Assembly (NCBI RefSeq): GCF_000332195.1
Contig: NZ_KB235922.1
Coordinates: forward strand, 4,933,322-4,997,321
Source of the DNA: Pleurocapsa sp. PCC 7319
GTDB taxonomy: Bacteria > Cyanobacteriota > Cyanobacteriia > Cyanobacteriales > Xenococcaceae
Direction: 5' to 3'
Length of the DNA: 64,000 nucleotides
This document shows positions 19,634 to 42,541 of this stretch, piece by piece; position 1 is the first letter of the stretch; each line of letters opens with the position of its first letter. Under the pieces are notes generated by a model. It did no database searches, was not told the origin of the DNA, and saw only the letters and a list, made by a program, of their open reading frames with translations. Made by a program: the position numbers and the translations under genes.

Positions 19634-19764
19634 GTAATTCCGTATTGCTATACCTGTAAGACTAGCTACTTTTTATGATTTTTTGGGAATTCTAAGAGAA
19701 AGATAATTTTTTTAATTAGATTAATTATTCTTCTTTAGATTTTCAAGAAAGTGAGTTGATAAAT

Positions 19765-20355
19765 ATGAATTCTTTTGTATCGATCCTGTTATCAGTGGTA
19801 ATTGTCTTTTTGTTGCTGACTTTTACTATTTTTATCATTGGAGTCAGGATTTATAACGGTTTAATCTATAAAAAGAATCAGGTTAGTAAATCTTTTTCCA
19901 GTGTAGATGTTTTACTCAAAAAAAGATGGGATTTAATTCCTAATTTAGTTTCGGTGGTTAAGCATCACATGGAGTTTGAACAGCAAACTTTAGCCGAAAT
20001 CACGAGATTGCGATCGCGAGTAATGTCCAATGAGGTAAGCGAGGGAGAAAGATTAAATCTCGAAAATCAAATCTCCCGCACCATGGGGAATATTTTGGCA
20101 TTGATTGAAAATTACCCTGAATTAAAATCTGATCAACACGTAAATCAATTATTAGCTTCTTTAAACGAAATTGAAGAACAAATATCTGCTGCTAGACGTT
20201 TTTACAATGCTGCGGTTACAGAATATAACAATGCAATTGAAATGTTTCCTAGTAACCTGGTCGCCAACTATATGCAATATCGCCCCAAAGAGTTGTTTGT
20301 TACGACTGAGGAAGAACGTAGCAATGTAAATGTTGGTGATTTATTAAATGGTTAA
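19765..20355 (+). CDS. LemA family protein
   Basis: 196 residues from ATG 19765 (a TTG at 19756 is the alternative). A membrane anchor at residues 2-26 is followed by the LemA coiled coil. Landmarks are IYNGLIYKKNQVSKSFSSVD, LLKKRWDLIPNLVSVVKHH, then ISAARRFYNAAVTEYN. This is the standard LemA layout, facing outside the membrane. It is followed by a DUF3137 gene 15 bases later, a pairing known in cyanobacteria and firmicutes. The function of the pair is not established. Confidence 0.85.
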   Translation: MNSFVSILLSVVIVFLLLTFTIFIIGVRIYNGLIYKKNQVSKSFSSVDVLLKKRWDLIPNLVSVVKHHMEFEQQTLAEITRLRSRVMSNEVSEGERLNLENQISRTMGNILALIENYPELKSDQHVNQLLASLNEIEEQISAARRFYNAAVTEYNNAIEMFPSNLVANYMQYRPKELFVTTEEERSNVNVGDLLNG

Positions 20356-20370
20356 TAGCCAAAGCATTTT

Positions 20371-21750
20371 ATGCATCAAGATATCGATTCTCAAAATAAT
20401 CCCCTGTCTCCAGAAGAAATTGAACGACTTTTTATTCAGGGCGATCGCAGTTTTCATCAGGGAAATTTTATCGCCGCCATCAATATTTTTGAACAACTAT
20501 TTCAAGAGCTAGATGCTAGTCATAGTATCTATTTCAATCTTCAACGTCAGTTAGTCAAAGCCTATCAACAAAACCAACAAATCGAACAAGCGATCGCATT
20601 ATGTCAACAGATGGCTACTAGTGATGTAGCAGCCACTTGTCTTTGGGGACAGAAATTTTTAGCATCTCTAGCTCCAGAAATTTATCAACAGATTTTAGTT
20701 ACTCAGTCCGATCAGGCAACACCAGAGTCAACAGTAGATCGATCATTAACCGGTATCAAACTGAAAACTTTATCAGAGTTTAAGCAATACTGCCAGGACA
20801 ATTTATTAGGATATTTAAAACAGTTAGAAAATACGAGAAAAAGAACTCTCATAACTATTATTATTTCCGGTATTATTTGCTTGGTATTTACCTGGTTTAT
20901 ATGTCGAATATTATTAAATCATTTGGCAATTGGTAATGTAATCTTGTTATATCTCTCTTGCCTTAGTTTCCCCCTCTCTATTTGGTTGATTTTCTGTCGT
21001 AGCTGTATTCAAGTTTATGGTTTAGGTTTTAAACGCAATATTATTGCTAAAATAATTGATTTTATTGATGATCGAGGCAGACTTAGTTATGCAAGTCATT
21101 TATTTTTAGAAGATAAACGCCAAACGATTATCGCTTTTACTAAAAGTCAAATCTTGAGAGATGAATTAGAAGAACCCGAATCTCTAGAACAAGAAGACTG
21201 TATCTACGGCACTATAGGCAATACAGATGTCTTTTTTGCCGAAATTTTAGTTAAAAAGGTCATAGGTGGGCAAAGAAATGAGTTGGGTTTAGAAAGTTTT
21301 ATCCATAAATCTGACATTTTTCACGGTTTATTTTTTGAGGCCAAATTTTCTAAAAAGTTTGTCAGTCGGACTTTTATTGTGCCTAATGATACTAAGAGTA
21401 AAATTGCTCATTTAAATAATTGGCGTGGAGAACTAATCAAGTTGGAAGATCCTGAATTTAATCGCCTATTTCGAGTTTATGGTGATAGCCAAATTGAATC
21501 CCGCTATATTCTCTCGACTAATTTAATGAGTCGTTTAGTCGATTTTAATTGCAAGGCTGGACGCAAAGTATATCTTTCTTTTATTGATGGGTTTGTCTAT
21601 ATTGCGATTCCCTACAGACACAATTTATTTGAACCCAAACTATTTAAGAATATGCTCTCTTTTGCTCCTCTCAGGGAATATTTTCAAGATTTGCAATTAA
21701 TGATCGGCATTGTAGAAGATTTAAACTTAAATCGCCGTATTTGGGGGTAG
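20371..21750 (+). CDS. TPR-like plus DUF3137 membrane protein
   Basis: 459 residues. The N-terminal part to about residue 120 is TPR-like (QGDRSFHQGNFIAAINIFEQ, then AYQQNQQIEQAIALC). Then come two membrane helices (about 163-215) and a C-terminal DUF3137 domain of about 200 residues (LGLESFIHKSDIFHGLFFEA, KFVSRTFIVPND). It is downstream of lemA by 15 bases, so the two are co-expressed. The fused TPR portion is an addition not always seen in DUF3137 proteins. Function unknown. Confidence 0.72.
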   Translation: MHQDIDSQNNPLSPEEIERLFIQGDRSFHQGNFIAAINIFEQLFQELDASHSIYFNLQRQLVKAYQQNQQIEQAIALCQQMATSDVAATCLWGQKFLASLAPEIYQQILVTQSDQATPESTVDRSLTGIKLKTLSEFKQYCQDNLLGYLKQLENTRKRTLITIIISGIICLVFTWFICRILLNHLAIGNVILLYLSCLSFPLSIWLIFCRSCIQVYGLGFKRNIIAKIIDFIDDRGRLSYASHLFLEDKRQTIIAFTKSQILRDELEEPESLEQEDCIYGTIGNTDVFFAEILVKKVIGGQRNELGLESFIHKSDIFHGLFFEAKFSKKFVSRTFIVPNDTKSKIAHLNNWRGELIKLEDPEFNRLFRVYGDSQIESRYILSTNLMSRLVDFNCKAGRKVYLSFIDGFVYIAIPYRHNLFEPKLFKNMLSFAPLREYFQDLQLMIGIVEDLNLNRRIWG

Positions 21751-22055: not shown

Positions 22056-25000
22056 ATGTCTGCACCTAAAAACGATATAGATCAAGATAAATCTAGCTTT
22101 CAAACACGTGAAAGTGATATTGATGGAGAAACAACTCTTCCTAAAACTTCTCAAGAGAGAAAGTTACGGCATAACAGACAAAACGATCCTGTGCCAACTG
22201 ATTTGAATCAATCAGCTCTTCCCGAACAAGCTACGCCAAAATCAGTTCGTAAAAATGTTACTGAGACTAAAGGGGGAGAAATAGTTAAGGTTGAGACTAA
22301 ATCACCGAAAAAACAGCCTAAAAAAGCATTTTTTCACCACTTACAAACTCAGACAGTAGCTATTTTAGTAGGTAGCGCAGTAATGTTGCCCATATTAGCA
22401 GTGGGAACAGCAACTTATTATTTTGGAAGCCAAACCCTCAATAAACAAGCTATCTTGGCGAAACGATTTGATAATCTGGGTTTAGCAGAAACAGAATTAG
22501 CACGACAACAAAAACTACAACAGCTACTGGCAGCATTGTTAATTGGTACGGGGACTACAGCTTTACTGACGGGGGCTATAGCTGCTTGGGGAACAAAAAG
22601 ACTCTTAGATTCGAGATCAAAAATATCTACCAAAGAAATAGAGGAAGAAGATGAAACCTATGTGAATGGGGAATTTATTCAAAATTCTAATCAGTCTGTT
22701 TCACAACCAAATATTCTCAAAGCCATTGTCGAAGAAGCTCGTAACTATCTAAATTGCGATCGCGTTGTTGTGTATAGTCTCAACCAAGATCGGTACGGTG
22801 TTGTAGTAGCAGAGTCAGTAGCTCCAGACTATACACAAGCATTAGGTAGAACGATAGTAGATCCCTGTTTTGAAGCTAAGTATCTCAAAAAGTACCGCGA
22901 TGGTCGAGTGAGGGCAATTGATAATATCTACGAAGCAAAAATGACTCCATGTTATTTGGAGCAATTAGAACAGCTAGAAGTCAAAGCCAATCTAGTTACA
23001 CCAATCCTCAACCAAGATAAGTTGTTCGGGTTATTAGTAGCTCATCAATGTAAGTCATCGCGAAAGTGGCAAAAAGCAGAAATTAATTTTTTGCTGCAAC
23101 TTGCTCAAAAAGCAGACTTGACTCTGGAAAACGCTAAGTTATTAGATGATATCATTCGCCTTCGGGCTCGGACAAAGAAAGAGAGGAGATGGACTCATCA
23201 CTTTACTGATGCCACTCAGTATATTCGCCAATCCCTCAAGCAAAATGATGTCCTGGATATCAGTGTTGAAGAAGTACGTAGAGTTTTAAAATGCGATCGC
23301 GTAGTTATTTACAGTCTCAATCAAGCTCAATACGGTGTGGTTATTGCCGAATCACTAGCTCCTGGTTATCCCAGAGCCTTGAATAAAACTATCTCTGACC
23401 CCTGTTTTGCAGCCAGATATCTCGATAAATACCGTGATGGTCGAGTAAGGGCAATTGATAATATCCAAGAAGCAGGAATGACTAAATGCTATGTCGAACA
23501 GTTAGAAACTTTGGATGTTAAAGCTAATTTGGTCACGCCTATTCTTAATGAGGGCAAGTTATTTGGTTTATTGGTAGCTCATCAGTGTAACCAACCCCGC
23601 CATTGGCAAAATTATGAGATTCGCTGGATGACCCAAATTGCCACTCAAGTTGGTTTTGCCTTGGATAACGCCAAGCTATTAGCTGAATCGACAAGACAAC
23701 AAGCTCAGGCAGAAAGAGAACGAAAATGGACTAATTACTTTACCGATGCCACTCAGTATATTCGCCAATCCCTCAAGCAACACGATGTCCTAGATATCAG
23801 CGTGGAAGAAGTGCGCCGAGTTTTAGAGTGCGATCGCGTAGTTATTTACAGTCTTAACCAAGATCGATACGGTGTGGTGATTGCCGAATCATTAGCTCCT
23901 GGTTATCCCAGAGCCTTAAATAGAAAGATTGAAGATCCTTGTTTTGAAGCCAGATATTTGGATAAATACCGTGATGGTCGAGTCAGGGCAATTGATAACA
24001 TCCATGAAGCAGGGATGACCAAATGTTACATCCAACAATTGGAAACTCTAGAAGTAAAAGCCAATCTAGTCACGCCCATTCTCAATGAAGGTCAATTATT
24101 TGGTTTATTAGTAGCTCATCAGTGTAGCCAACCCCGCCACTGGCAAGACTATGAAATTCGCTGGATGACTCAAATTGCCACTCAAGTTGGTTTCGCCTTG
24201 GATAATGCCAAGATCTTAGCTGAATCGACAAGACAACAAGCTCAGGCAGAGAGAGAACGAAAATGGACGAATTATTTTACCGATGCCATTCAATATATTC
24301 GTCAATCTCTTTCACAAGATGATGTTTTGGATATCAGCGTGGAAGAAGTGCGCCGAGTTTTAGAGTGCGATCGCGTCGTAGTTTACAGTCTCAACCAAGA
24401 TCGATACGGTGTGGTGATTGCTGAATCAATTGTTCCTGGTTATCCCAGAGCCTTAAATAGAATAATAAAAGACCCCTGTTTTGAAGCCAAATATCTCGAG
24501 CAATATCGTGATGGTCGGGTTCGGGCAATTAGTAACATCCGGGAAGCAGGAATGACTAAATGCTACATCGAACAGTTAGAAACTCTGGAAGTTAAAGCCA
24601 ATCTGGTTACACCCATCCTCAATGAAGGTAAGTTATTTGGTTTATTAGTAGCTCATCAGTGTAGTCAACCCCGCCACTGGCAAGACTATGAAATTCGGTG
24701 GATGACCCAAATTGCTACTCAAGTTGGTTTTGCCTTGGATAACGCTGCCTTATTAAAAAGATTTCAAAACGATAGTCTAGCAACTCAATTACTCAAAAAT
24801 TTTAGTCTCGATATCAGTGAAGGAACCAACACATCAGATCTACTTAAAATTGCTGTCGAACAAGCCCGTAAAATAGTGAAGCTTGATCGCGTCATTGTTT
24901 ATCAGTTTGATGCTGACTGGAACGGTAATATAGTAGCTGAATCTTTAACAACTGGATATCCCAGAGGGTTAAATACTCTGTTTAAAGACCCCTGCTTCGG

Positions 25001-25919
25001 TCAAGAATATGGAGAAAAATATCGTCAAGGTCGCATCAAGGCGATCGCCGATATTTATCAGGCAAATTTAACTACCTGTCACTTAGAACAGTTAGAATCC
25101 CTAGCAGTTAAGGCTAGTCTTGTAGTGCCAATTTTGCAAGATGAGCGACTATTCGGTTTATTAATTGGTCATCAGTGTGAACAACCCCATCAATGGGAAC
25201 AATCAGAAATAGATCTATTTGCTCAATTAGCTCTTCAATTAGGATTTGCTCTGGAACGTTTTCAGCTTAAGGAAGAGTTGGAATTGGCACAACAAAACCA
25301 CAACCATGAGTCTGACGAACAGCAGCTAGAACTACTAAATTTTCAACAAAAGATCTCAGAATTAATCGCCGAAAATAAAGCGGCACTGCAAGATCTCAAA
25401 ACCCAAATTAACGATCGCTCAGTATTTACGAACGATTTTACTCCTCAAACAAAGGCGATTAAGCAACAGCATGACCAGAAGAGTTCGGAGTACTCGCTAC
25501 GCGAGAAGCTTCGCAACGGAGTTCGGAATTCAGAGTTAGCTAGAGGTTCAAGTCTGTTTTCAAACGAGCCCAACTCCGAACTACTAACTACTAACTCTGA
25601 ACTAGAGCGAAGCGACCTTGATTCATTAGAACTTGAGCCCAAGATGGCTTCTGAAGAATTGATGCTCAAATCAAATAATCAACAGACAAAAGACATTACT
25701 ACAGTACAAGAAGAGATACAGGGTCAACTCAGTACTGGTGATCATGAGCGACTATATCAAGAAGCGATCGCTGAAGCTAAGGAAAAAGTCGAGGTACTTA
25801 ACCAGTCCAACCAGAATCTTTACCAAATGGTAAGTCTAATCAACGATATGAAAGCAGGGATAGAAAGATCATCAGCCAGAGAAACAACACCAGACCAGTT
25901 GGAAGCTGAGGAATCGTGA
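22056..25919 (+). CDS. Tandem-GAF sensor protein 1 (five GAF modules)
   Basis: 1287 residues. A basic N-terminus (1-95) precedes two membrane helices (about 100-123 and 156-178). Five GAF domains follow, at about 220-365, 395-550, 574-725, 753-905 and 926-1080. Each was read with DPCF plus a later C(Y/H)xxQL cysteine; the last has the canonical CH. The 28-residue spacing was counted in the first module. This is the two-Cys layout of DXCF-type cyanobacteriochromes, so bilin binding is possible (inference). Modules 2-4 are near copies with a 537-base period. The C-terminus is a Gln/Glu coiled coil without kinase, GGDEF or MCP output. A repeat is embedded at residues 1141-1187. It is convergent with the PstS-like gene 11 bases away. 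Confidence 0.83.
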   Translation: MSAPKNDIDQDKSSFQTRESDIDGETTLPKTSQERKLRHNRQNDPVPTDLNQSALPEQATPKSVRKNVTETKGGEIVKVETKSPKKQPKKAFFHHLQTQTVAILVGSAVMLPILAVGTATYYFGSQTLNKQAILAKRFDNLGLAETELARQQKLQQLLAALLIGTGTTALLTGAIAAWGTKRLLDSRSKISTKEIEEEDETYVNGEFIQNSNQSVSQPNILKAIVEEARNYLNCDRVVVYSLNQDRYGVVVAESVAPDYTQALGRTIVDPCFEAKYLKKYRDGRVRAIDNIYEAKMTPCYLEQLEQLEVKANLVTPILNQDKLFGLLVAHQCKSSRKWQKAEINFLLQLAQKADLTLENAKLLDDIIRLRARTKKERRWTHHFTDATQYIRQSLKQNDVLDISVEEVRRVLKCDRVVIYSLNQAQYGVVIAESLAPGYPRALNKTISDPCFAARYLDKYRDGRVRAIDNIQEAGMTKCYVEQLETLDVKANLVTPILNEGKLFGLLVAHQCNQPRHWQNYEIRWMTQIATQVGFALDNAKLLAESTRQQAQAERERKWTNYFTDATQYIRQSLKQHDVLDISVEEVRRVLECDRVVIYSLNQDRYGVVIAESLAPGYPRALNRKIEDPCFEARYLDKYRDGRVRAIDNIHEAGMTKCYIQQLETLEVKANLVTPILNEGQLFGLLVAHQCSQPRHWQDYEIRWMTQIATQVGFALDNAKILAESTRQQAQAERERKWTNYFTDAIQYIRQSLSQDDVLDISVEEVRRVLECDRVVVYSLNQDRYGVVIAESIVPGYPRALNRIIKDPCFEAKYLEQYRDGRVRAISNIREAGMTKCYIEQLETLEVKANLVTPILNEGKLFGLLVAHQCSQPRHWQDYEIRWMTQIATQVGFALDNAALLKRFQNDSLATQLLKNFSLDISEGTNTSDLLKIAVEQARKIVKLDRVIVYQFDADWNGNIVAESLTTGYPRGLNTLFKDPCFGQEYGEKYRQGRIKAIADIYQANLTTCHLEQLESLAVKASLVVPILQDERLFGLLIGHQCEQPHQWEQSEIDLFAQLALQLGFALERFQLKEELELAQQNHNHESDEQQLELLNFQQKISELIAENKAALQDLKTQINDRSVFTNDFTPQTKAIKQQHDQKSSEYSLREKLRNGVRNSELARGSSLFSNEPNSELLTTNSELERSDLDSLELEPKMASEELMLKSNNQQTKDITTVQEEIQGQLSTGDHERLYQEAIAEAKEKVEVLNQSNQNLYQMVSLINDMKAGIERSSARETTPDQLEAEES
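23190..24757. repeat. Tandem 537-base GAF modules within protein 1
   Basis: Three copies of a 179-codon unit (helical linker plus GAF), with the same motif at 23220, 23757 and 24294, each exactly 537 bases apart. The near identity of parts of the units points to recent duplication or gene conversion. Confidence 0.8.
25480..25617. repeat. Dispersed inverted/STRR-like repeat inserted in frame
   Basis: agttcggagt (25482) with actccgaact (25573), and ttcagagttag (25529) with ctaactctgaa (25591), are inverted arms inside the coding region. The text resembles non-coding repeats such as the one near 47.70-47.74 kb (ctctgaact, actccgaact). It encodes residues 1141-1187 without breaking the frame. 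Confidence 0.6.
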
Positions 25920-25930
25920 ACTGCTGAAAA

Positions 25931-26971
25931 TTAATCAAGAGGAATGAAACCAGATTTGGTTATTAGCTTCTGTCCTTGGGGTGTTAGCAAGAAATTAGCA
26001 TAGCTGTGACCTATTGGCGATCGCACTCCTTCATTGTGGAGAAATACTACGTATAGATAATGAGTTAGAGGATATTGAGCAGTAGACAAAGCTTTGATAT
26101 TTAGTTGATTACGTCGCTGGGGACAATCAGCAGGAGATACCAAAGGCTTGCGGTAAGGAGCAATCAGATCACTTCCTTGAAGACCCAAAGACAAAGGTTT
26201 AACAGTACATTGGGGAACAAGTGCTGATGCAGAACCATAGTAAATGCCTCCCGGATTACTGGCTAATTGGCGAAGTGCTTGAGTAGTTGTGGCAATAAAT
26301 TCAACATTTGAACCAAATTCTTGCTCCTGAAGAATCCTAGAAGCAAAAAAATCAACCATACCTCCTATATTAGGAGGACGAGAATAGGCTGTAATTGCTA
26401 AGTCTGGCCCCCCTACCTCCTGCCAATTAGAAATTTTTCCGGTGTAAATTGCTTGAAGTTGGCTAAGAGTTAGACCAGAAAGATTTAGCTGAGGGTGAAC
26501 GACAACAGCTATAGCATTGACCGCTACCGGCACTTGTTTTAGCTTTAATCCTTTTTGTTGGGCTAGTTCGTATTCTTGGGGCAATAGTGAATGAGAAGAC
26601 TGGACAAAAGCCAATTGACCCTCAAGTAACATCTGGATTCCTGGGCTAGTGCCTGGAGGTTGATTTTGGGGTTGTACATAGCGTAATTGTAATTCGGGTC
26701 GCTCAGATTGAATTACTGAATCTACTACTAAACGAAGTGAAGCCCAGGCACTGCTGCCACCATAATTAAAAACGCCAGTTGCTACGTTAGGCACATGAGC
26801 AAAATCAGGAATATTTTGGGCAACTCCTGAGGCTTTAATGCTTGAGTTTTGAGATATTTGCCAAATTCCTACCGAGATTAATGCTACAGACCATCCTAGA
26901 ACAATAAAGACCGCTAAAACGACAGTTATTAATATCGGTTTTTCATAAATCTTCTGATGGAAATTTTCCAT
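25931..26971 (-). CDS. Membrane-anchored PstS-like phosphate-binding family protein
   Basis: 346 residues. One membrane helix (about 12-38, ILITVVLAVFIVLGWSVALI) is followed by a PBP-like domain. Landmarks are GVFNYGGSSAWASLRLVVDS, LEGQLAFVQSS and AVVVHPQLNLSGLTLSQLQA. IYTGKISNWQEVGGPDL and GYxNFLLTPQGQ-like text near the end are also diagnostic of PstS/SphX-type binding proteins. There is no pstCAB next to it, and the anchor replaces a lipoprotein signal. It may therefore be a sensor or scavenger rather than a transporter subunit. It lies between two GAF-array genes; the intergenic gap to GAF gene 2 is 237 bases and shared by divergent promoters. Confidence 0.78.
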   Translation of the reverse strand: MENFHQKIYEKPILITVVLAVFIVLGWSVALISVGIWQISQNSSIKASGVAQNIPDFAHVPNVATGVFNYGGSSAWASLRLVVDSVIQSERPELQLRYVQPQNQPPGTSPGIQMLLEGQLAFVQSSHSLLPQEYELAQQKGLKLKQVPVAVNAIAVVVHPQLNLSGLTLSQLQAIYTGKISNWQEVGGPDLAITAYSRPPNIGGMVDFFASRILQEQEFGSNVEFIATTTQALRQLASNPGGIYYGSASALVPQCTVKPLSLGLQGSDLIAPYRKPLVSPADCPQRRNQLNIKALSTAQYPLTHYLYVVFLHNEGVRSPIGHSYANFLLTPQGQKLITKSGFIPLD

Positions 26972-27208
26972 AGTTTAGTGGAATTAAGCAAATAATATAT
27001 AAACAAATTTTTGTATTATATTATCAATCTATATTAATCTATACATAACAAATATACTAAGTAATTTTACGGAAGTAACTTTTAGCATCTTGCTTTCGCA
27101 CTCAGAATTCTTAAGAGGATGTCTGAAAAGTAGTTTTGGGGACTGAAAATATTACTTCTTAATTACTTTGGGTTTTTGAGAAGCTATCTAAATAACTAAC
27201 TATGATTG

Positions 27209-30200
27209 ATGACTGAATCTCTTGATGTAAAACCAAACAATTATCAGAATATCGAAGAAATTTTAAAAGTTACGGCCCTATCAACCAAAAAAATTCTGAA
27301 GTGTGATCGGGTCATTATTTATGATGCCAGTGAGCTACCTGCCGCAGAAATAATAGCTGAATCTGTTAACTCAAAATATGCTTCTATCCTCGGCCAAAAA
27401 ATTATCGACCCTTTTTTATCCGGAGAATATTTAGAACTTTATTGCTATGGTCAAACTGTAGCCATAGATGATCTTAACTCGGCGGATGTCAGTAAAAACC
27501 AATTAGAAAGTTTAGAACAATTAAACGTCAAAAGTTTGGCGATCGCGCCGATTTGTCTGGGCAATGAATTATTAGCTTTTTTGGTTGCTCATCAATTCTC
27601 GAAACCTCAAACTTGGGATTCTGAAGCAATCAATCTGTTGGCAGAGCAAGCAAACACAGCCAGCTTAGCTTTCTCAAAAATTGCCATGACTGAGAAGTCC
27701 AATTCAGATACTAATTTCACTAAACAGAAAATAGATAGCCTTGAAAGCCACAAATTACCCAGTCGGTTTAGGACTGGGTCTGATGTGACCGTTGATCAAA
27801 AGCAAGGAAATTCCCCAACCATGGATCGCAAAGAAAAAAGCAATGGCAACAGTAATAGCGATATTCAAAATACTGAGCAGAAAACAATGATTCAGGAAGA
27901 TCAAAGTAGATCTTTTGCCGAAGTCAAGGAAGAAATAGCTAATGAATTGGGCTCAGAAAATATTCTCAACACAACAGTTAATGAATTACGTCATTTACTC
28001 AAATGCGATCGCGTTGTAGTTTACAGTCTCAATCAAGATAGTTATGGGGAAGTCATAGCTGAATCTGTTGCTATGGGATGGACTAAGGCATTAGGAAGAA
28101 TTATAGATGATCCTTGTTTTGCAGCTAGATATATAGAACAGTATCGTAATGGTAGACTCCGTGCTTGGGATGATATTTATCGAGAATATACTACTTCCTG
28201 TTACCTTGAACAGTTAGAAGCTTTAGAAGTTAAAGCGAACTTGGTAGCACCAATTATTAAAGAAGGTCAATTATTTGGTTTATTAATCGCCCATCACTGT
28301 TCTGATACTCATAATTGGCAAGAACAAGAAATTAACTGGATATCTGAAATTGCTACCCAGATAGGTCTTCTGCTTGAATATAGTGGAATGGTTGCCGAAA
28401 ATGACCAACAAGAATCACAACCATTAACCGAGAGTGAAATTAAATGGAATCAGCATTTTACTGATGCGATTCAATATATTCGTCAATCTTTAACCGAGGA
28501 AGATATCTTAAAGGCCAGTGTTAAAGAAGTACGGAGAATTTTAAATTGTGATCGCGTCGTAGTTTACAGCATGAACCAAGACGATCAGGGCACGATTGTT
28601 GCTGAATCCGTAGCTGCTAGTTGGACTAAAGCGCTGGGCAGAGTAATTGACGATCCTTGTTTTGAAGCTAAATATCTTGACCAGTATCGCGATGGTAGGG
28701 TTCGGGCTTGGAACAACATATATGAGTCAGGCTTGACTAGGTGTTACATCGAACAGCTAGAACAGCTAGAGGTTAAGGCTAATTTGGTTACTCCGATACT
28801 CAATGAAGGAAAACTATTTGGGTTACTAGTTGCCCATCAATGTTCTGACTTTCGTAATTGGCAACAGCTTGAAGTTCGCTGGGTAGCTCAAATTGCTACT
28901 CAGGTTGGTTTTGCTCTCGATAACGCCAAACTATTAGCAGATGCCAAGCAACTGCAATATCAGTTACAAAACGAGGTTCAACTAACCAAGTATTTTACCG
29001 ATGCGACTCGCTATATTCGAGAATCTCTGCACCAAGAGGATATTCTCGAAGTTAGTGTCGAAGAAGTACGACGAGTTTTAAATTGCGATCGTGTTGTTGT
29101 CTATAGTCTGAACTCCGATAATCATGGTCTGGTCTCCGCCGAATCCGTGGCTCCTGGTTGGACGAGAGCGCAGGGAAGGATCATCAAAGATCCTTGCTTT
29201 GAAGCTAATTATCTGGAAAAGTATCGTAATGGTAGGGTTCGGTCTTGGAGCAATATATATCAAGCAGGAATGACTAGATGTTACATTGAACAGCTAGAAC
29301 AATTAGAAGTCAAGGCTAATCTAGTAACACCAATTATCAGTGAAGGGAAACTATTTGGATTATTAGTTGCCCATCATTGTGCTGACTTTCGTAAATGGCA
29401 GCAGTCTGAAATTCGCTGGGTAACTCAAGTCGCTACTCAAGTTGGTTTTGCTCTTGACAATGCCCAATTATTAGTTGATGCCCAGGGACTACGCCAGCAA
29501 GTAGAAGACGAAGGTAAGTGGACAGAGTATTTTACTGATACCGTTCAACATATTCGTCAATCCCTTAAATCTCGCGATATTCTGAAAACTAGCGTGCGGG
29601 AAATACAGAGAATTTTAAATTGCGATCGGGTTGTTATCTACAGCCTAAACTCAGATAATCACGGTACGATCATTGCTGAATCTGTAGCTGCTGGTTGGAC
29701 GAGAGCCAAGGGTCTAGTAATTAAAGATCCTTGCTTTGAAGCTAGATATCTCGAGATGTATCGTAACGGTAGGGTTCGGGCTTGGAACAACATCTACGAA
29801 TCAGGTATGACTGGGTGTTATATCGAACAATTAGAGAAGCTAGAAATCAAGGCTAATTTAGTAGCGCCAATTATCAATGGAGGAAAATTATTTGGACTAT
29901 TAGTGGCTCATCAATGTTCTGCTCCTCGTAATTGGCAACAATCTGAAATTCGTTGGGTAGCTCAAATTGCCACCCAAGTTGGTTTGGCTCTGGATAACGC
30001 TAAACTGCTCGAGCAACTGAAGCAATCTGTATCTCATCAGCAACATGAGCAAACAGAAATTCTCAAACATCAAGTAGTTGAAATACTTGCTGAAAATGGA
30101 AATGCTTATCAAACTCTTTCTCAAGAAGCCATGCTTCAATCGGAAACAATTATCAATGTTCTACATCAAATCCACCAAGTTGCCGATTTATTTAATGAAA

Positions 30201-30865
30201 TAGCTTTAAACGTTCAACAGCTCAAATTCCAAGAGCAACAAAATGACTTAGCCCTAAAAGATACGAAAGAAAGTATAAATCGTTCTATAAATAGCATCTC
30301 CAATATCCAACACACCGTGCAAAATGTTGCAGTTGGTTTTGATAATTTGACTAATTCTTCCCAACAGCTTTCTGAGACACTTAATACGATCAAAGATGTG
30401 AGTAAGCAGATAGTTCAGCAATCTATGAGTATAACGAGAATTGTAAATCGTAGTCAGATTGAAATCGAAAGTCAAAACTCGATTATCGATTTGTCCGACA
30501 AAATTTTTTCCCTCATACAGCAATTATTTGAAGCCACAGCCAGAGTTGAACCTTTATTTAGCAATGTAAGAACAGAAGTTATGGAGAAAACAATTGCTCT
30601 CGACTCGGGAACACAGCAGCTAATCAACGGAGTTGGAGATTTGGAAACAGTTTGTCAAAAGCTAGAGCGAGTTGTTTCTCTTAATACCAAGATCAGTAAT
30701 TTGATCGCTAAGATTTCTCAAGCAGTGGAAAATCAGTCACAAAGCTCAACATTTGCCAAAGATTCAGTTCAAGAAGTAGCAAGCATCGCCGAGCGAATTT
30801 CCGAACAGTCCATGAGCATCACTCAGTCATTTAACCAATTAGTCATATTAATTCAAAAGCTCTAA
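27209..30865 (+). CDS. Tandem-GAF sensor protein 2 with MCP-like coiled coil
   Basis: 1218 residues from ATG 27209 (TTG 27206 rejected). GAF modules lie at about 15-160, 250-400, 423-575, 602-754 and 781-933. Module 1 lacks both cysteines (DPFL, then KNQLESLEQL). Modules 2-5 have DPCF and CY (SCYLEQL, RCYIEQL, GCYIEQL). From about residue 950 a coiled coil related to the PilJ/MCP signalling region follows (SSQQLSETLNTIK, then RTEVMEKTIALDSGTQQL). The tip motif EAARAGE is absent (SMSITRIVNRSQIEIESQ instead). No membrane helix. It is a close paralogue of protein 3, sharing the promoter-region string taattacttt-gtttttgagaa. Confidence 0.83.
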   Translation: MTESLDVKPNNYQNIEEILKVTALSTKKILKCDRVIIYDASELPAAEIIAESVNSKYASILGQKIIDPFLSGEYLELYCYGQTVAIDDLNSADVSKNQLESLEQLNVKSLAIAPICLGNELLAFLVAHQFSKPQTWDSEAINLLAEQANTASLAFSKIAMTEKSNSDTNFTKQKIDSLESHKLPSRFRTGSDVTVDQKQGNSPTMDRKEKSNGNSNSDIQNTEQKTMIQEDQSRSFAEVKEEIANELGSENILNTTVNELRHLLKCDRVVVYSLNQDSYGEVIAESVAMGWTKALGRIIDDPCFAARYIEQYRNGRLRAWDDIYREYTTSCYLEQLEALEVKANLVAPIIKEGQLFGLLIAHHCSDTHNWQEQEINWISEIATQIGLLLEYSGMVAENDQQESQPLTESEIKWNQHFTDAIQYIRQSLTEEDILKASVKEVRRILNCDRVVVYSMNQDDQGTIVAESVAASWTKALGRVIDDPCFEAKYLDQYRDGRVRAWNNIYESGLTRCYIEQLEQLEVKANLVTPILNEGKLFGLLVAHQCSDFRNWQQLEVRWVAQIATQVGFALDNAKLLADAKQLQYQLQNEVQLTKYFTDATRYIRESLHQEDILEVSVEEVRRVLNCDRVVVYSLNSDNHGLVSAESVAPGWTRAQGRIIKDPCFEANYLEKYRNGRVRSWSNIYQAGMTRCYIEQLEQLEVKANLVTPIISEGKLFGLLVAHHCADFRKWQQSEIRWVTQVATQVGFALDNAQLLVDAQGLRQQVEDEGKWTEYFTDTVQHIRQSLKSRDILKTSVREIQRILNCDRVVIYSLNSDNHGTIIAESVAAGWTRAKGLVIKDPCFEARYLEMYRNGRVRAWNNIYESGMTGCYIEQLEKLEIKANLVAPIINGGKLFGLLVAHQCSAPRNWQQSEIRWVAQIATQVGLALDNAKLLEQLKQSVSHQQHEQTEILKHQVVEILAENGNAYQTLSQEAMLQSETIINVLHQIHQVADLFNEIALNVQQLKFQEQQNDLALKDTKESINRSINSISNIQHTVQNVAVGFDNLTNSSQQLSETLNTIKDVSKQIVQQSMSITRIVNRSQIEIESQNSIIDLSDKIFSLIQQLFEATARVEPLFSNVRTEVMEKTIALDSGTQQLINGVGDLETVCQKLERVVSLNTKISNLIAKISQAVENQSQSSTFAKDSVQEVASIAERISEQSMSITQSFNQLVILIQKL

Positions 30866-31080
30866 TGAAAAAATATATGTTAAAACTTTTTGCTGACATT
30901 TTACAGAGACAATCAAAACATACTTATAATCTCAATTCTTCTTTTAGGTTCGTTAGTTTTGGCGATCTTTTAAAGTCATATTTTTACCTACAAACTTGAG
31001 CTCAAGCAACTTAGATCGGCTTTTTTAAAATGATTCCTAATTACTTTAAGTTTTTGAGAAACAACAAAATAATACGAGCA

Positions 31081-33879
31081 ATGACAGAATACCTTGATTT
31101 AAAAACCAATAATTATCAGGACATTAAAGAGCTATTTCAAGTTACTGCTCAAACAACCAGACAATCTTTGAATTGCGATCGAGTAATTGTCTATGATGCT
31201 GGCGAATTACCCCAAGCGCTAATCTTAGCAGAATCTGTTGATGCTAAATACTCTTCTATTTTGGGCAAAACAATTAAAGACCCTTTTCTAGATGGTAGTT
31301 ATTTAGAAATGTACTGTTATGGTATGTCTGTAAGTATAGATAATATCCAGACCACAGATGCCCATAAAACTGACATAGCAGAACTAGAAAAACTGGAGAT
31401 TAAAAGCCAGATGATCGCGCCGATTTCTGTCGGTAATGAATTATTAGCTTTTTTAGTAGCTCATCAATGCTCTAAACCCCAACCTTGGAATTTTGATGCA
31501 GTTGATTTTTTGGCAGAGCAAGCAAGCTCCGTCAGCTTAGCTCTCTCAAATATTACCGATACTGAGAAATCGCAAGATTTTAATTTCATTAAACAGATAG
31601 CTGATAGTCAAGATAACAAAGATTATCGACATCAAGAGCAGAAAAGCATCAATCTAGAGAATAAAAATAGCTTGTTTACCGATGTCATCAACAAAATAAC
31701 CAATGCAACTGACCAAGCAGACATCCTCAACACAACAGTTGCGGCAGTAAGTGAACTACTTAAATGCGATCGCGTTTTGGTCTATAGTCTAGAGCAAGAT
31801 AATTATGGGGTTGTAGTAGCCGAATCTGTTGCTGCTGGATTGACTAAGGCTTTAGGTAAAACCATAGATGACCCTTGCTTTGCCGCCAGATATTTAGAGA
31901 AATATCGTAATGGTAGAGTCCGTGCCTGGGATAATATTTATGCTGAGGACATAACTCCCTGTTATCTTGAACAGTTGGAGGCTTTAGGAGTCAAAGCTCA
32001 CTTAGTTGCGCCGATTATTAGAGAAAGTCAACTATTTGGTTTATTAATTGCCCATCAGTGTTTTGAGACTCGTAGTTGGCAAGAACAAGAAATTAACTGG
32101 ATAACTGAAATTGCTAATCAAGTAGGTATTATGCTCGAATATAATAAAATTTTTATCGATAACGAACAAGAAGAACAACAACTTGCTGATGTTACAAATC
32201 AGATAATAGATCAAAAAAACTGGACAGAACATTTTACCAATGCGATTCAACAGATACGTAAATCGCTTAAAACAGGAGATATCATCGCATCTAGCGTTCG
32301 AGAAGTACGCAAGATTTTAAATTGCGATCGCGTCTTAATCTATGGTCTGAGTCGAAATAATTATGGTAAGATCGTCGCCGAATCTGTAGCTGCTGGTTGG
32401 ACTGAGGGGATAGGCAAAATCATCAAAGACCCTTGTTTTGAAGCCAGATATCTCGAGAAGTATCGTGACGGAAGGGTTCGGGTTTGGAACAACATTTATG
32501 AAGCAGGATTAACACAGTGTCATATTGAACAACTAGCAGAGCTGGAGGTCAAGGCAAATCTGGTAGTTCCGATTATCAACGATCAAAAACTATTTGGTTT
32601 ATTAGTGGCTCAACAGTGTTCTGGTACTCGTCAATGGCAGCAAAATGAAATTTATTGGCTAACTCAAATTGCCACTCAAATAGGTTTTGCGCTCGAAAAT
32701 GCCCAGTTGTTGGCTGATGCTCAACGACTACGTCAGCAAGCAGAAGAATCAAGAAAGTGGTCGGAGTATTTTACCGATGTGATTCACCAGATACGTCAAT
32801 CGCCTAGAACCAAGGATATTCTCAGAGCTAGCGTTCGAGAAGTACGCAGAATTTTAAATTGCGATCGCGTCCTGATTTATAGCTTAAACGAAGATAACTA
32901 TGGTGTAGTTGTCGCTGAATCTGTGACCCATGGTTGGACAAGAGCGGAGGGAAAAGTAATTAAAGACCCTTGCTTTGAAGCCAGGTATCTAGCAAAGTAT
33001 CGTGACGGGAGAGTTCGGGTTTGGAACGACATTTATCAAGCAGGAATGAGCAGTTGTCATATTGAACAGTTAGAACAGCTAGAGGTCAAGGCAAATCTGG
33101 TAATTCCTATTATCAAAGAAAAACAATTGTTTGGTCTATTAGTGGCTCAACAATGTTCTAATACTCGTGAATGGCATCAATCTGAAGTTGATTGGCTAAC
33201 TAAAATTGCTACACAAGTTGGTTATGCTCTTGATAACGCCAAGCTACTGGAACAGATAGACCAATCTACTAAAGATTCTCAAGCAATTTTAGATCGTGCC
33301 GTAAACAATAGCTCAAATATTCAACAAACAGTTAACAATGTTACTAAGGTATTTGAAGGTCTTGGTCATTCTTGTCAACAACTCTCTGAGACAATTGCTA
33401 CTCTCAAAGATTTGAGTAAACAAATAGCACAACAATCCATGACCATAACCAGATCCCTCAATTTCAGTCAAGTTGAATCGAGTAATCAAGATTTTATTAA
33501 TGACATATCAGATCGAATTTTTACTTTGATGCAAGAGCTATTTGAAGCTACGGCAAAAATCGACCCTTTATTTACCAATATTAAAACAGAAGTACTTGAG
33601 AAAACCATTGCTTTAGAATTAGAAACACAACAGCTCAACAGTGGAGTTGAAGAATTTCAAATAGCTCGAGAAAATCTAGATCGAGTTGTTGCACTGAATC
33701 ATGAGATGAGTAACCTCATTGATAATATTTCTAAATCCCTTGAAGATCAAATACAAAATTCCACCTTTACTAGGGATTCAGTTCAAAAAGTAGTCAACAT
33801 TGCCGAGCGAATTTCCGAACAATCCGTTAGCATGACACAATTTTTTAATCAATTAAATTTTACTAGTTCAAAATCTTAA
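31081..33879 (+). CDS. Tandem-GAF sensor protein 3 with MCP-like coiled coil
   Basis: 932 residues from ATG 31081; an upstream ATG at 31030 is in frame but the region before 31081 is homologous to non-coding DNA before gene 2. There are four GAF modules (about 15-160, 213-365, 398-550, 577-730). Module 1 lacks both Cys (DPFL). Module 2 has DPCF with TPCYLEQL, and modules 3 and 4 have DPCF with CH (QCHIEQL, SCHIEQL), the canonical bilin-attachment pair. The C-terminal coiled coil (735-932) matches that of protein 2. It is a likely photosensor or redox/ligand sensor; output is unknown. It ends 14 bases before the convergent nitrilase gene. Confidence 0.83.
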   Translation: MTEYLDLKTNNYQDIKELFQVTAQTTRQSLNCDRVIVYDAGELPQALILAESVDAKYSSILGKTIKDPFLDGSYLEMYCYGMSVSIDNIQTTDAHKTDIAELEKLEIKSQMIAPISVGNELLAFLVAHQCSKPQPWNFDAVDFLAEQASSVSLALSNITDTEKSQDFNFIKQIADSQDNKDYRHQEQKSINLENKNSLFTDVINKITNATDQADILNTTVAAVSELLKCDRVLVYSLEQDNYGVVVAESVAAGLTKALGKTIDDPCFAARYLEKYRNGRVRAWDNIYAEDITPCYLEQLEALGVKAHLVAPIIRESQLFGLLIAHQCFETRSWQEQEINWITEIANQVGIMLEYNKIFIDNEQEEQQLADVTNQIIDQKNWTEHFTNAIQQIRKSLKTGDIIASSVREVRKILNCDRVLIYGLSRNNYGKIVAESVAAGWTEGIGKIIKDPCFEARYLEKYRDGRVRVWNNIYEAGLTQCHIEQLAELEVKANLVVPIINDQKLFGLLVAQQCSGTRQWQQNEIYWLTQIATQIGFALENAQLLADAQRLRQQAEESRKWSEYFTDVIHQIRQSPRTKDILRASVREVRRILNCDRVLIYSLNEDNYGVVVAESVTHGWTRAEGKVIKDPCFEARYLAKYRDGRVRVWNDIYQAGMSSCHIEQLEQLEVKANLVIPIIKEKQLFGLLVAQQCSNTREWHQSEVDWLTKIATQVGYALDNAKLLEQIDQSTKDSQAILDRAVNNSSNIQQTVNNVTKVFEGLGHSCQQLSETIATLKDLSKQIAQQSMTITRSLNFSQVESSNQDFINDISDRIFTLMQELFEATAKIDPLFTNIKTEVLEKTIALELETQQLNSGVEEFQIARENLDRVVALNHEMSNLIDNISKSLEDQIQNSTFTRDSVQKVVNIAERISEQSVSMTQFFNQLNFTSSKS

Positions 33880-40548: not shown

Positions 40549-41433
40549 ATGATCCTGAAAATTCGCGATCGCCATTTTCATTGGGGAGCCAGAACCTATT
40601 TAATGGGTATCCTCAATGTTACTCCTGATAGTTTTAGTGATGGTGGTGAATTTGGCAGTCTAGAAAAGGCTATAGCTCAAGCTAGGAAAATGATCGATAA
40701 TGGCGTAGATATTATTGATATTGGTGGAGAATCTACTCGTCCCCATGCAGAGCAAATCTCTACTGAAAAAGAATTAAATCGAGTTATTCCTGTAATTCAA
40801 AAGCTACGGCAGGAAACTTCAATTCCTATTTCTGTAGATACAACTAAAGCTATAGTTGCCGAGAAAGCGATCGCCGCTGGAGCAGATATTGTTAATGATA
40901 TTTCTGGAGCTACTTTTGATAGCAAAATGTTGGCAACGGTAGCCCAGTTAGATGTTCCAATTATCCTCATGCATATTCGCGGTACACCCAAAACGATGCA
41001 GACATTAACTGAATATCAAGATGTAGTGGCGGAAGTAGCGCAATTCTTAACTACACAAATAGCTCAAGCAACTGCTTGTGGCATTGATCGATCAAAGATA
41101 ATTATTGACCCTGGTATTGGGTTTGCCAAAACTGCAACCCAAAGTCTAGAATTACTGCAACGCTTATCTGAATTGAAGTCTTTAAACTTTCCCCTCTTAG
41201 TTGGGGTTTCTCGTAAAAGTTTTATGCGTCCTATCTTAAATAAAGAGCATCCTCAAGAAAGAATCTGGGGGACTGCGGCTGCCTGTTACGGTGCGATTGC
41301 CAGAGGTGCAGATATATTAAGAGTTCATGATGTGCCAGAAATGTACGATGTTTGTCGAGTAGCAGATGCGATCGAGCTTGACATACTCCCCATGCCTAGA
41401 AGGGCAGGGGATTCTAAATTCAAACAGAGATAG
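40549..41433 (+). CDS. folP: Dihydropteroate synthase, C-terminus altered by an insertion
   Basis: 294 residues. Start at ATG 40549; a TTG at 40543 is possible. Conserved blocks are GILNVTPDSFSDGG, DIGGESTRPHA, SVDTTKAIVAEKAIAAGADI, ILMHIRGTPKTMQ, IIDPGIGFAKT and VGVSRKSFM, so the TIM barrel with pterin and pABA sites is complete. The natural end of the protein seems to be near VADAI; the last roughly 20 codons are read from the TnpB right end. That tail (LDILPMPRRAGDSKFKQR) may be harmless since the family C-terminus is short and variable. Folate biosynthesis. Confidence 0.9.
   Translation: MILKIRDRHFHWGARTYLMGILNVTPDSFSDGGEFGSLEKAIAQARKMIDNGVDIIDIGGESTRPHAEQISTEKELNRVIPVIQKLRQETSIPISVDTTKAIVAEKAIAAGADIVNDISGATFDSKMLATVAQLDVPIILMHIRGTPKTMQTLTEYQDVVAEVAQFLTTQIAQATACGIDRSKIIIDPGIGFAKTATQSLELLQRLSELKSLNFPLLVGVSRKSFMRPILNKEHPQERIWGTAAACYGAIARGADILRVHDVPEMYDVCRVADAIELDILPMPRRAGDSKFKQR
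41388..41410. repeat. Right-end hairpin of the TnpB element
   Basis: cccc-a-tgcc-tagaag-ggca-gggg with one bulged base. It lies at the 3' end of tnpB on the minus strand and within folP on the plus strand. In this family it forms the end of the omega-RNA scaffold; the guide would be read from the flanking folP DNA. Confidence 0.6.
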
Positions 41434-42541
41434 CAGTCTGAGACTGTCTTACATCTCCTAGCTTAAGGGTTGATGCCCCAACCCTTTGAATATTGATTGC
41501 TGCATTTGCGTCCCGATCAAGCGTTGTATTGCATTGAAGACAAGTCCATTCTCGCTCTTGAAGACTTAATTTTTGATTGACATACCCACAACAAGAGCAT
41601 GTCTTAGAGCTTGGAAAAAACCGATCTATATAGTGAACTAGTTTTCCTTTGTTAGTAGCAACCGTTTCAAGGATTTCTAAAAAAGTAGCCAAACTCAAAT
41701 CGCTTACTTTTCTACCCCACAAACGCTTCATTCCATCTAAATTTAAATCTTCAAAGATCAAAACATCGTATTCATCTGTTAACTGATTAGCCAGTTTCCA
41801 AAACCAATCTCGACGCTTATGAGATATTTGTTCGTATACTCGGTTTAAATGGTCTTTCGCTCTATACCAATTACTAGAACCTTTTTTCTTTCTAGATAAA
41901 GAACGATTAGCAGCTTTTAATTTGTTTCTCAATTGACTGAAAAATAGTGGCGATTCAATACTTTTGCTGTCACTGCTAGTTAAAAATGTCTTTAAGCCAA
42001 AATCCCAACCCGCATTTTTACCTGTCACGATTGGAATGTGTTCTTGTTGATAGTCTGTCACTACTAACAAAAACAATTCGCCTAAATTATTTCTTTTAAC
42101 AGTTAATGTTTTGACTTTACCCTTGATTTTTCTACTAAGAGAAAACTTAAAAACTTGTTTTCCTATTTTTATTTTATTGTTAAAAATAAATTTATATCCA
42201 GCTTGTTTCAAAGTGAAAGACTTGTACTTTCTGCACTTTTTAAAATTAGGTGGTCTAGTTCCTTTTTGATGTTGTTTAAAAAATATTTGATACGCTTTTT
42301 CTATGCGTTGAATTACATCTTGAACAGCTTGTGAACCTACCTGCTGCCAGTACTTAATGCGTTTTCTCAACTTGGCTATATGCTTCATAAGACGAAACTG
42401 ATTCAAGTGCTTGCCAAACATTTTATAGTAGCGTTTATGCAACGCTATACAATGATTATAAATACTGGCACTAGCATTAATTGAATAGTGCAAATATTTA
42501 TTTTTTTTATGTCGGTATAACTTGAATTTGTATGTCTTCAT
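41420..42541 (-). CDS. tnpB: TnpB RNA-guided nuclease (IS200/IS605 OrfB)
   Basis: 373 residues, complete. The N-terminal helix-turn-helix-like segment starts KTYKFKLYRHKKNKYLHYSI. The RuvC triad is visible: GWDFGLKTF (Asp), FEDLNLDGM (Glu) and LDRDANAAINI (Asp). The zinc ribbon is CSCCG...CLQC. TnpB cuts DNA using a guide RNA from the element's right end, helping the element persist. No tnpA is nearby, so movement would need a TnpA in trans. Convergent with folP and overlapping its end by 14 bases. AT-rich codon use fits the host. Confidence 0.93.
   Translation of the reverse strand: MKTYKFKLYRHKKNKYLHYSINASASIYNHCIALHKRYYKMFGKHLNQFRLMKHIAKLRKRIKYWQQVGSQAVQDVIQRIEKAYQIFFKQHQKGTRPPNFKKCRKYKSFTLKQAGYKFIFNNKIKIGKQVFKFSLSRKIKGKVKTLTVKRNNLGELFLLVVTDYQQEHIPIVTGKNAGWDFGLKTFLTSSDSKSIESPLFFSQLRNKLKAANRSLSRKKKGSSNWYRAKDHLNRVYEQISHKRRDWFWKLANQLTDEYDVLIFEDLNLDGMKRLWGRKVSDLSLATFLEILETVATNKGKLVHYIDRFFPSSKTCSCCGYVNQKLSLQEREWTCLQCNTTLDRDANAAINIQRVGASTLKLGDVRQSQTAISV

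Follow-up and report, generated by a model that had tools for sequence, protein, structure and literature searches.

The closest described systems to the proteins reported here are the PixJ-type photoreceptors TePixJ and SyPixJ1 and the Nostoc punctiforme phototaxis receptor PtxD. According to the accessible portion of PMC5812497, PixJ1 has two transmembrane segments, while PtxD carries seven GAF domains, a long tandem cyanobacteriochrome array, on a tail of the methyl-accepting chemotaxis protein (MCP) type and is clustered with CheA, CheW and CheY homologues. An ordinary MCP has both its trimer contacts and its CheA/CheW determinants near the tip of the signalling hairpin (PMC4692393, accessible portion). 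Here, three tandem-GAF proteins, P1, P2 and P3, are described from a 64,000-nucleotide stretch of Pleurocapsa sp. PCC 7319 (contig NZ_KB235922.1, positions 4,933,322 to 4,997,321; hereafter the window). They are PixJ/PtxD-like up to the receptor stalk, and P1 has two transmembrane segments as PixJ1 does, but at the tip they depart from a functional MCP. Unlike TePixJ and SyPixJ1, they have up to five modules and mostly Tyr for the His beside the canonical cysteine, another sequence takes the place of the MCP tip in P2 and P3, P1 is without most of the MCP domain, and no adjacent CheA or CheW gene was recognised; unlike PtxD, P2 and P3 have an altered tip, and the neighbour near P1 and P2 is a PstS-like gene. 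The three proteins are classed as a variant in which DXCF-type cyanobacteriochrome arrays sit on tails of MCP descent with an altered tip. A literature search that took in few subscription journals, and some sources only in part, returned no description of a Cys-Tyr variant or a tip-altered chemoreceptor, which is not to claim that none is in print.

With TePixJ and SyPixJ1 the proteins share the positions and spacing of the D-x-C-F motif and the canonical cysteine, about 40% identity and a superposable model. The open reading frame (ORF) list, Pfam and a motif count agree on 14 GAF domains (5 + 5 + 4 in P1, P2 and P3), the number given in a preliminary description of this DNA, which had also read DPCF and a second cysteine in 13 of them; the actual figure is 12, P2 GAF1 and P3 GAF1 having DPFL instead and lacking the second cysteine too. 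The distance from the first cysteine to that of C(Y/H)xxQL is exactly 28 residues in all twelve, the value previously counted in three of them. The residue that follows, usually His as in TePixJ (His523), is Tyr in nine of the twelve (CY) and His in the same three for which it had been reported (CH; P1 GAF5, P3 GAF3 and P3 GAF4). TePixJ is the best sequence match in the PDB, both for P1 (E 2.6e-42) and for one CY module alone (E 3e-41), and the alignment with it is ungapped and places both cysteines on C494 and C522, so the motif match is not a chance one. The pocket residues D492, C494, C522 and Q526 of TePixJ are retained in every two-Cys module, and the model of one CY module, which had TePixJ among the first ranks of a structural search, lies at a root mean square deviation of 1.4 from the TePixJ crystal structure. 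The modules have the GAF domain and fold of the cyanobacteriochrome clade, and the DXCF layout first suggested is upheld in 12 of the 14; neither cysteines outside the bilin pocket nor widely varying spacing, both named beforehand as grounds for abandoning it, was seen. Because the His is a conserved residue and not a strict criterion, we class the modules as variant DXCF cyanobacteriochromes. Judging from these residues, the twelve keep a dual-Cys bilin pocket and would probably bind bilin and switch with light. In a P1 orthologue from another genome (L080:3043-6903, G002) the last GAF domain is longer by roughly a dozen residues between its two cysteines (KAMPLCEAVSFRTAS...), possibly a small insertion akin to a repetitive NSEL-type stretch in the P1 tail (25512-25616). 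The latter looks as though a short dispersed repeat had been inserted in frame, presumably of the kind seen among cyanobacterial short repeats.

Tyr is the majority residue among orthologues within the family but is seldom seen in a sample from outside. When modules from the fetched family stretches were assigned to groups by best BLAST hit, the two-Cys modules numbered 67 of 90 in the P2 group, 37 of 44 in the P1 group and 15 of 27 in the P3 group, with Tyr to His at 66 to 1, 25 to 12 and 13 to 2, respectively. An outside sample of 28 loci (L108-L135), which were the genomes' best matches to a CY module among the loci returned and were therefore picked by similarity and not at random, had 51 two-Cys modules among 64, in which His outnumbered Tyr by 48 to 3, and receptors of the same family in the L099-L103 group had 12 His to 2 Tyr. 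The replacement of His523 in 9/12 modules here and in most orthologue modules, together with the loss of both cysteines from 2/14 modules here and from some in the orthologues, would also suit arrays that bind no bilin, in which the His-to-Tyr modules act as redox (two-Cys) or structural domains on a coiled-coil scaffold. Such a role is rather unlikely, though it deserves to be taken seriously. In the P2 group the pocket D, Q and N are kept in 67, 64 and 62 of the 67 two-Cys modules but in only 17, 7 and 3 of the 23 modules without the Cys pair, a retention for which a mere redox pair has no need. The ratio of nonsynonymous to synonymous substitution (dN/dS) against three orthologues is lower for the two-Cys GAF3-5 of P2 (0.13, 0.08 and 0.09) than for its Cys-less GAF1 (0.44, 0.31 and 0.24), and three modules keep CH. 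Two shorter proteins of the same genome, L025:4785-6221 (478 residues) and L026:4508-5953 (481 residues), each have two DPCF/CY GAF modules and a short helical tail, and are possible extra members (their tail profile scores 27.0 at a probability of 8.5%, against at most 19.5 for shuffles).

P2 and P3 are homologous to the MCP signalling hairpin over its full length, although both fall under the curated gathering cut-off of Pfam MCPsignal (PF00015, 34.6 bits; P2 26.1 bits, E 8.6e-6; P3 21.3 bits, E 2.6e-4). A scan of the genome placed 15 ordinary MCPs over that cut-off and neither of the two tails. The P2 tail matches ordinary MCPs of its own genome across nearly its full length (E down to 9.2e-18). 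Tail profiles were compared by hhalign with a profile of 12 of the 15 MCPs, giving a score of 158.5 for P2 (99.5%, E 1.9e-22, 269 columns), 75.9 for P3 (96.7%, E 3.9e-10, 196 columns) and 62.3 for 15 P1-type tails (95.2%, E 2.6e-8). The corresponding controls stayed well under these scores, at 30.5, 25.8 and 16.5 with reversed MCPs and at no more than 31.1, 34.8 and 19.9 over 20 heptad-phase shuffles. Chance coiled-coil similarity of the three tail profiles was ruled out by these two controls. The AlphaFold model of the P2 tail is a hairpin with its turn at tail residues 137-140 (mean predicted local distance difference test, pLDDT, 78.5), and all nine matches of this model at E <= 0.001 in a structural search are chemoreceptors. 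For P1 the homology appears only in the 15-tail profile, and longer orthologue tails reach significance by themselves (L093, E 3.8e-12; L097, E 1.1e-7); most of the MCP domain is gone from P1, which is membrane-anchored. The one PHROGs match was marginal (E 9.3e-4), to a family whose function is unknown. It had been said that no histidine kinase or GGDEF domain is attached to these proteins, and Pfam lists none, but the accompanying view that they have no known output was rejected for P2 and P3, which end in a tip-replaced, MCP-derived signalling hairpin, and is not supported for P1, which is membrane-anchored and whose orthologues have tails that resemble MCPs.

What P2 and P3 lack is the conserved tip that binds CheA and CheW. 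The tip has 23 columns whose residue is shared by 75% or more of the 12 MCPs. Of the conserved cells in these columns, 33/454 (7%) remain in 20 P2-type sequences and 18/161 (11%) in seven P3-type sequences, whereas over 70 flank columns they keep 500/1197 (42%) and 128/390 (33%). The nearest receptors examined outside the P2/P3 group all have an ordinary tip (9/9; eight by pattern, one by eye). Signalling to the chemotaxis kinase might yet continue, through a dedicated CheW or CheA that binds the altered tip or through modulation of ordinary-receptor arrays by P2 and P3: the hairpin is otherwise full length, and the 15 ordinary MCPs of the genome could form such arrays. This is improbable, as so little of the conserved tip is left just where the trimer and CheA/CheW determinants lie (PMC4692393, accessible portion). 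Furthermore, no CheA, CheW or CheY homologue was recognised by eye among the ORFs around P1-P3 (15000-42000 of the window), a region for which the family-library scan (Pfam/NCBIfam) covered, apart from P1-P3 or their neighbours, just seven proteins of the window.

The new tip is itself conserved, with a column identity among 15 P2 orthologues of 85% against 83% in the flanks, and dN/dS values against three orthologues are 0.16, 0.12 and 0.21 for the tip and 0.23, 0.15 and 0.14 for the whole of P2; P1 gives 0.14 against one orthologue. With dN/dS low and the tip as conserved as its flanks, the tip has therefore been replaced and maintained and is not decaying. That the proteins are pseudogenes being lost might be suggested by the widely varying length of P1-type tails, the two GAF modules without their cysteines and some entirely tail-less relatives in another family. 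This was rejected on dN/dS and tip conservation and is very improbable: the frames are open, dN/dS is 0.08-0.23 for whole proteins and GAF arrays, and 10 of the 19 P2-type loci that were fetched keep P1, the opposed PstS-like gene and P2 as a group. The tail-less relatives are P1-like proteins of another family of the order; read by eye, L150:7666-10242, L151:8323-10905 and L152:8115-10697 stop right after GAF4. A further P1-like protein of that family, L153:7912-10818, stops where the MCP tip would start.

A second tip-replaced receptor family is represented in the same genome by L021:4236-7040 (minus strand; region G000:C7:285238-288040). Like P2 and P3, it is a GAF receptor of MCP descent with the tip swapped for another conserved sequence, but it has one CH GAF domain (DPCF and TECH), two membrane segments, a large periplasmic part (own reading) and a different new tip. 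A search of 60 genomes gave matches of at least 243 bits in six, every one of the same genus, and the tip is altered in 6/6 aligned sequences; the G009 copy has one in-frame TAA.

P1, P2 and P3 would thus descend from PixJ-type cyanobacteriochrome chemoreceptors whose twelve dual-Cys modules probably bind bilin and switch with light. Since P2 and P3 retain the MCP coiled-coil hairpin, a light-driven change could still travel along it. At its end the tip that bears the trimer contacts and CheA/CheW sites in ordinary MCPs has been swapped for a new conserved sequence, so P1-P3 most likely do not drive CheA, and as relatives keep the new end unchanged the light signal is probably passed on in another way. 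P1 anchors an array in the membrane, and the signal would be handed via the new tip to a partner other than CheA, perhaps by a complex of P1 and P2, with or without P3. The layout of the pocket, the MCP ancestry of the P2 and P3 tails, the exchanged tip, its purifying selection, the restriction to a clade and the conserved neighbourhood are computational results, whereas bilin binding, switching, uncoupling from CheA, the new partner and the complex are inferences. On balance we lean towards this reading, in which the cyanobacteriochrome receptors have ceased to drive CheA and the new tip carries their signal to a different partner. It is weakest on two points, namely whether the CY modules bind bilin and what the partner is, and several observations weigh against it. 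The change from His to Tyr could abolish or alter chromophore use; a dedicated CheW could still bind a divergent tip; and no gene for an obvious partner lies within the region of P1, the PstS-like gene, P2 and P3. The tail of P1 alone is not significantly MCP-like (E 0.13), the P2 tail model has a predicted template modelling score of 0.43 and comes from five uneven models (pLDDT 78.5 to 47.1), and in a sequence-only PDB search the tail profile favours a designed coiled coil (E 1.1e-4) over an MCP (E 0.008).

A more specific proposal is put forward tentatively, with the odds somewhat against it: a clade-specific multi-module receptor of baeocyte-forming cyanobacteria, taken off CheA, would use the new coiled-coil tip and a distinct bilin photochemistry of its Tyr-variant dual-Cys modules and act with the PstS-like protein, the disconnection having been repeated in the L021 family. 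From its position, the PstS-like neighbour may be guessed to add phosphate or periplasmic input via the P1 membrane hairpin. Relatives of the Pleurocapsa group make motile baeocytes, and motility or attachment is by analogy a plausible readout both for that reason and because of the gene content of a relative. Waterburya, another member of the Pleurocapsales, has pix and pil genes (PMC8580901, accessible portion). If the favoured reading is true, photoreceptors of the chemoreceptor type can lose their coupling to the chemotaxis kinase and yet be maintained by selection for another output. Two questions become testable, namely the effect of Tyr for His in a dual-Cys pocket and what binds the new hairpin tip. 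Furthermore, the GAF modules are candidates for new optical tools because they are small and numerous.

Among the genomes searched, tails of the P2/P3 type are confined to one clade. A profile of 14 P2 tails reaches at least 178 bits in 17 of 27 genomes of the Pleurocapsa/Hyella/Xenococcus family. The search took in 264 further genomes of the order, none of which came up to that score, and the best outside match is 127 bits. Relatives come from Pleurocapsa, Myxosarcina, Xenococcus, Hyella and other Xenococcaceae and Hyellaceae in 13 of 14 loci, the fourteenth being a 22% match in Paenibacillus. The PstS-like gene, for a periplasmic binding protein, converges with P1 and diverges from P2 (Table 1), and it adjoins P2 in 15 of the 19 P2-type loci. 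Among those without the full arrangement, five are short contigs, have partial genes or have P1 elsewhere, and in L087, L088 and L098 the P1 and P2 relatives are adjacent with no PstS-like gene between them. All seven P3-type loci fetched lie apart from P1 and P2.

Table 1. Positions of P1, P2, P3 and their parts in the window, with the intervening gene.
Feature	Position	Strand	Description and basis
P1	22056..25919	+	1287 residues; two hydrophobic segments at the N-terminus, then five GAF modules, all two-Cys (GAF1-GAF4 CY, GAF5 CH), and a long tail
P1 transmembrane hairpin	22347..22586	+	Hydropathy; hydrophobic at about residues 98-121 and 157-177
P1 GAF1-GAF5	22680..25271	+	Pfam and motif reading
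P1 tail, residues 1065-1287	25248..25919	+	Weak MCP relation, visible only via orthologues
PstS-like gene	25931..26971	-	PF12849, E 3.7e-24; TIGR02136 below cut-off; N-terminally hydrophobic (hydropathy)
P2	27206..30865	+	1219 residues; GAF1 lacks both cysteines, GAF2-GAF5 are two-Cys (CY); MCP-like tail
P2 tail	30044..30862	+	Helical hairpin derived from MCP signalling domain
P2 replaced hairpin tip, residues 1058-1112	30377..30541	+	Alignment with MCPs
P3	31030..33879	+	949 residues; GAF1 lacks both cysteines, GAF2 is CY, GAF3 and GAF4 are CH; tail MCP-like
P3 replaced hairpin tip, about residues 793-843	33406..33558	+	Alignment with MCPs

The N-terminus of P1 is conserved among orthologues, and the listed start of P2 is a TTG with an ATG immediately after it (own reading of the ORF). 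PF15714 (SpoVT_C), which we take to be a GAF-like domain, exceeds its cut-off of 27.5 bits over the GAF regions of P1 (31.9) and P2 (35.9); many sub-threshold Pfam/NCBIfam oddities on P1-P3 were treated as noise. Just upstream of P1, at 19756-21750, lie a LemA-family gene and then a TPR/DUF3137 gene, and an ORF at 41420-42541 (minus strand) resembles, by eye, an IS200/IS605-type TnpB transposase. Elsewhere in the genome, a Pix-like cluster (L027, G000:C7:5698000-5716000) has two adjacent one-GAF MCPs beside a 1368-residue ORF, and one of these MCPs combines a DPCF/ECH GAF domain with a normal tip.
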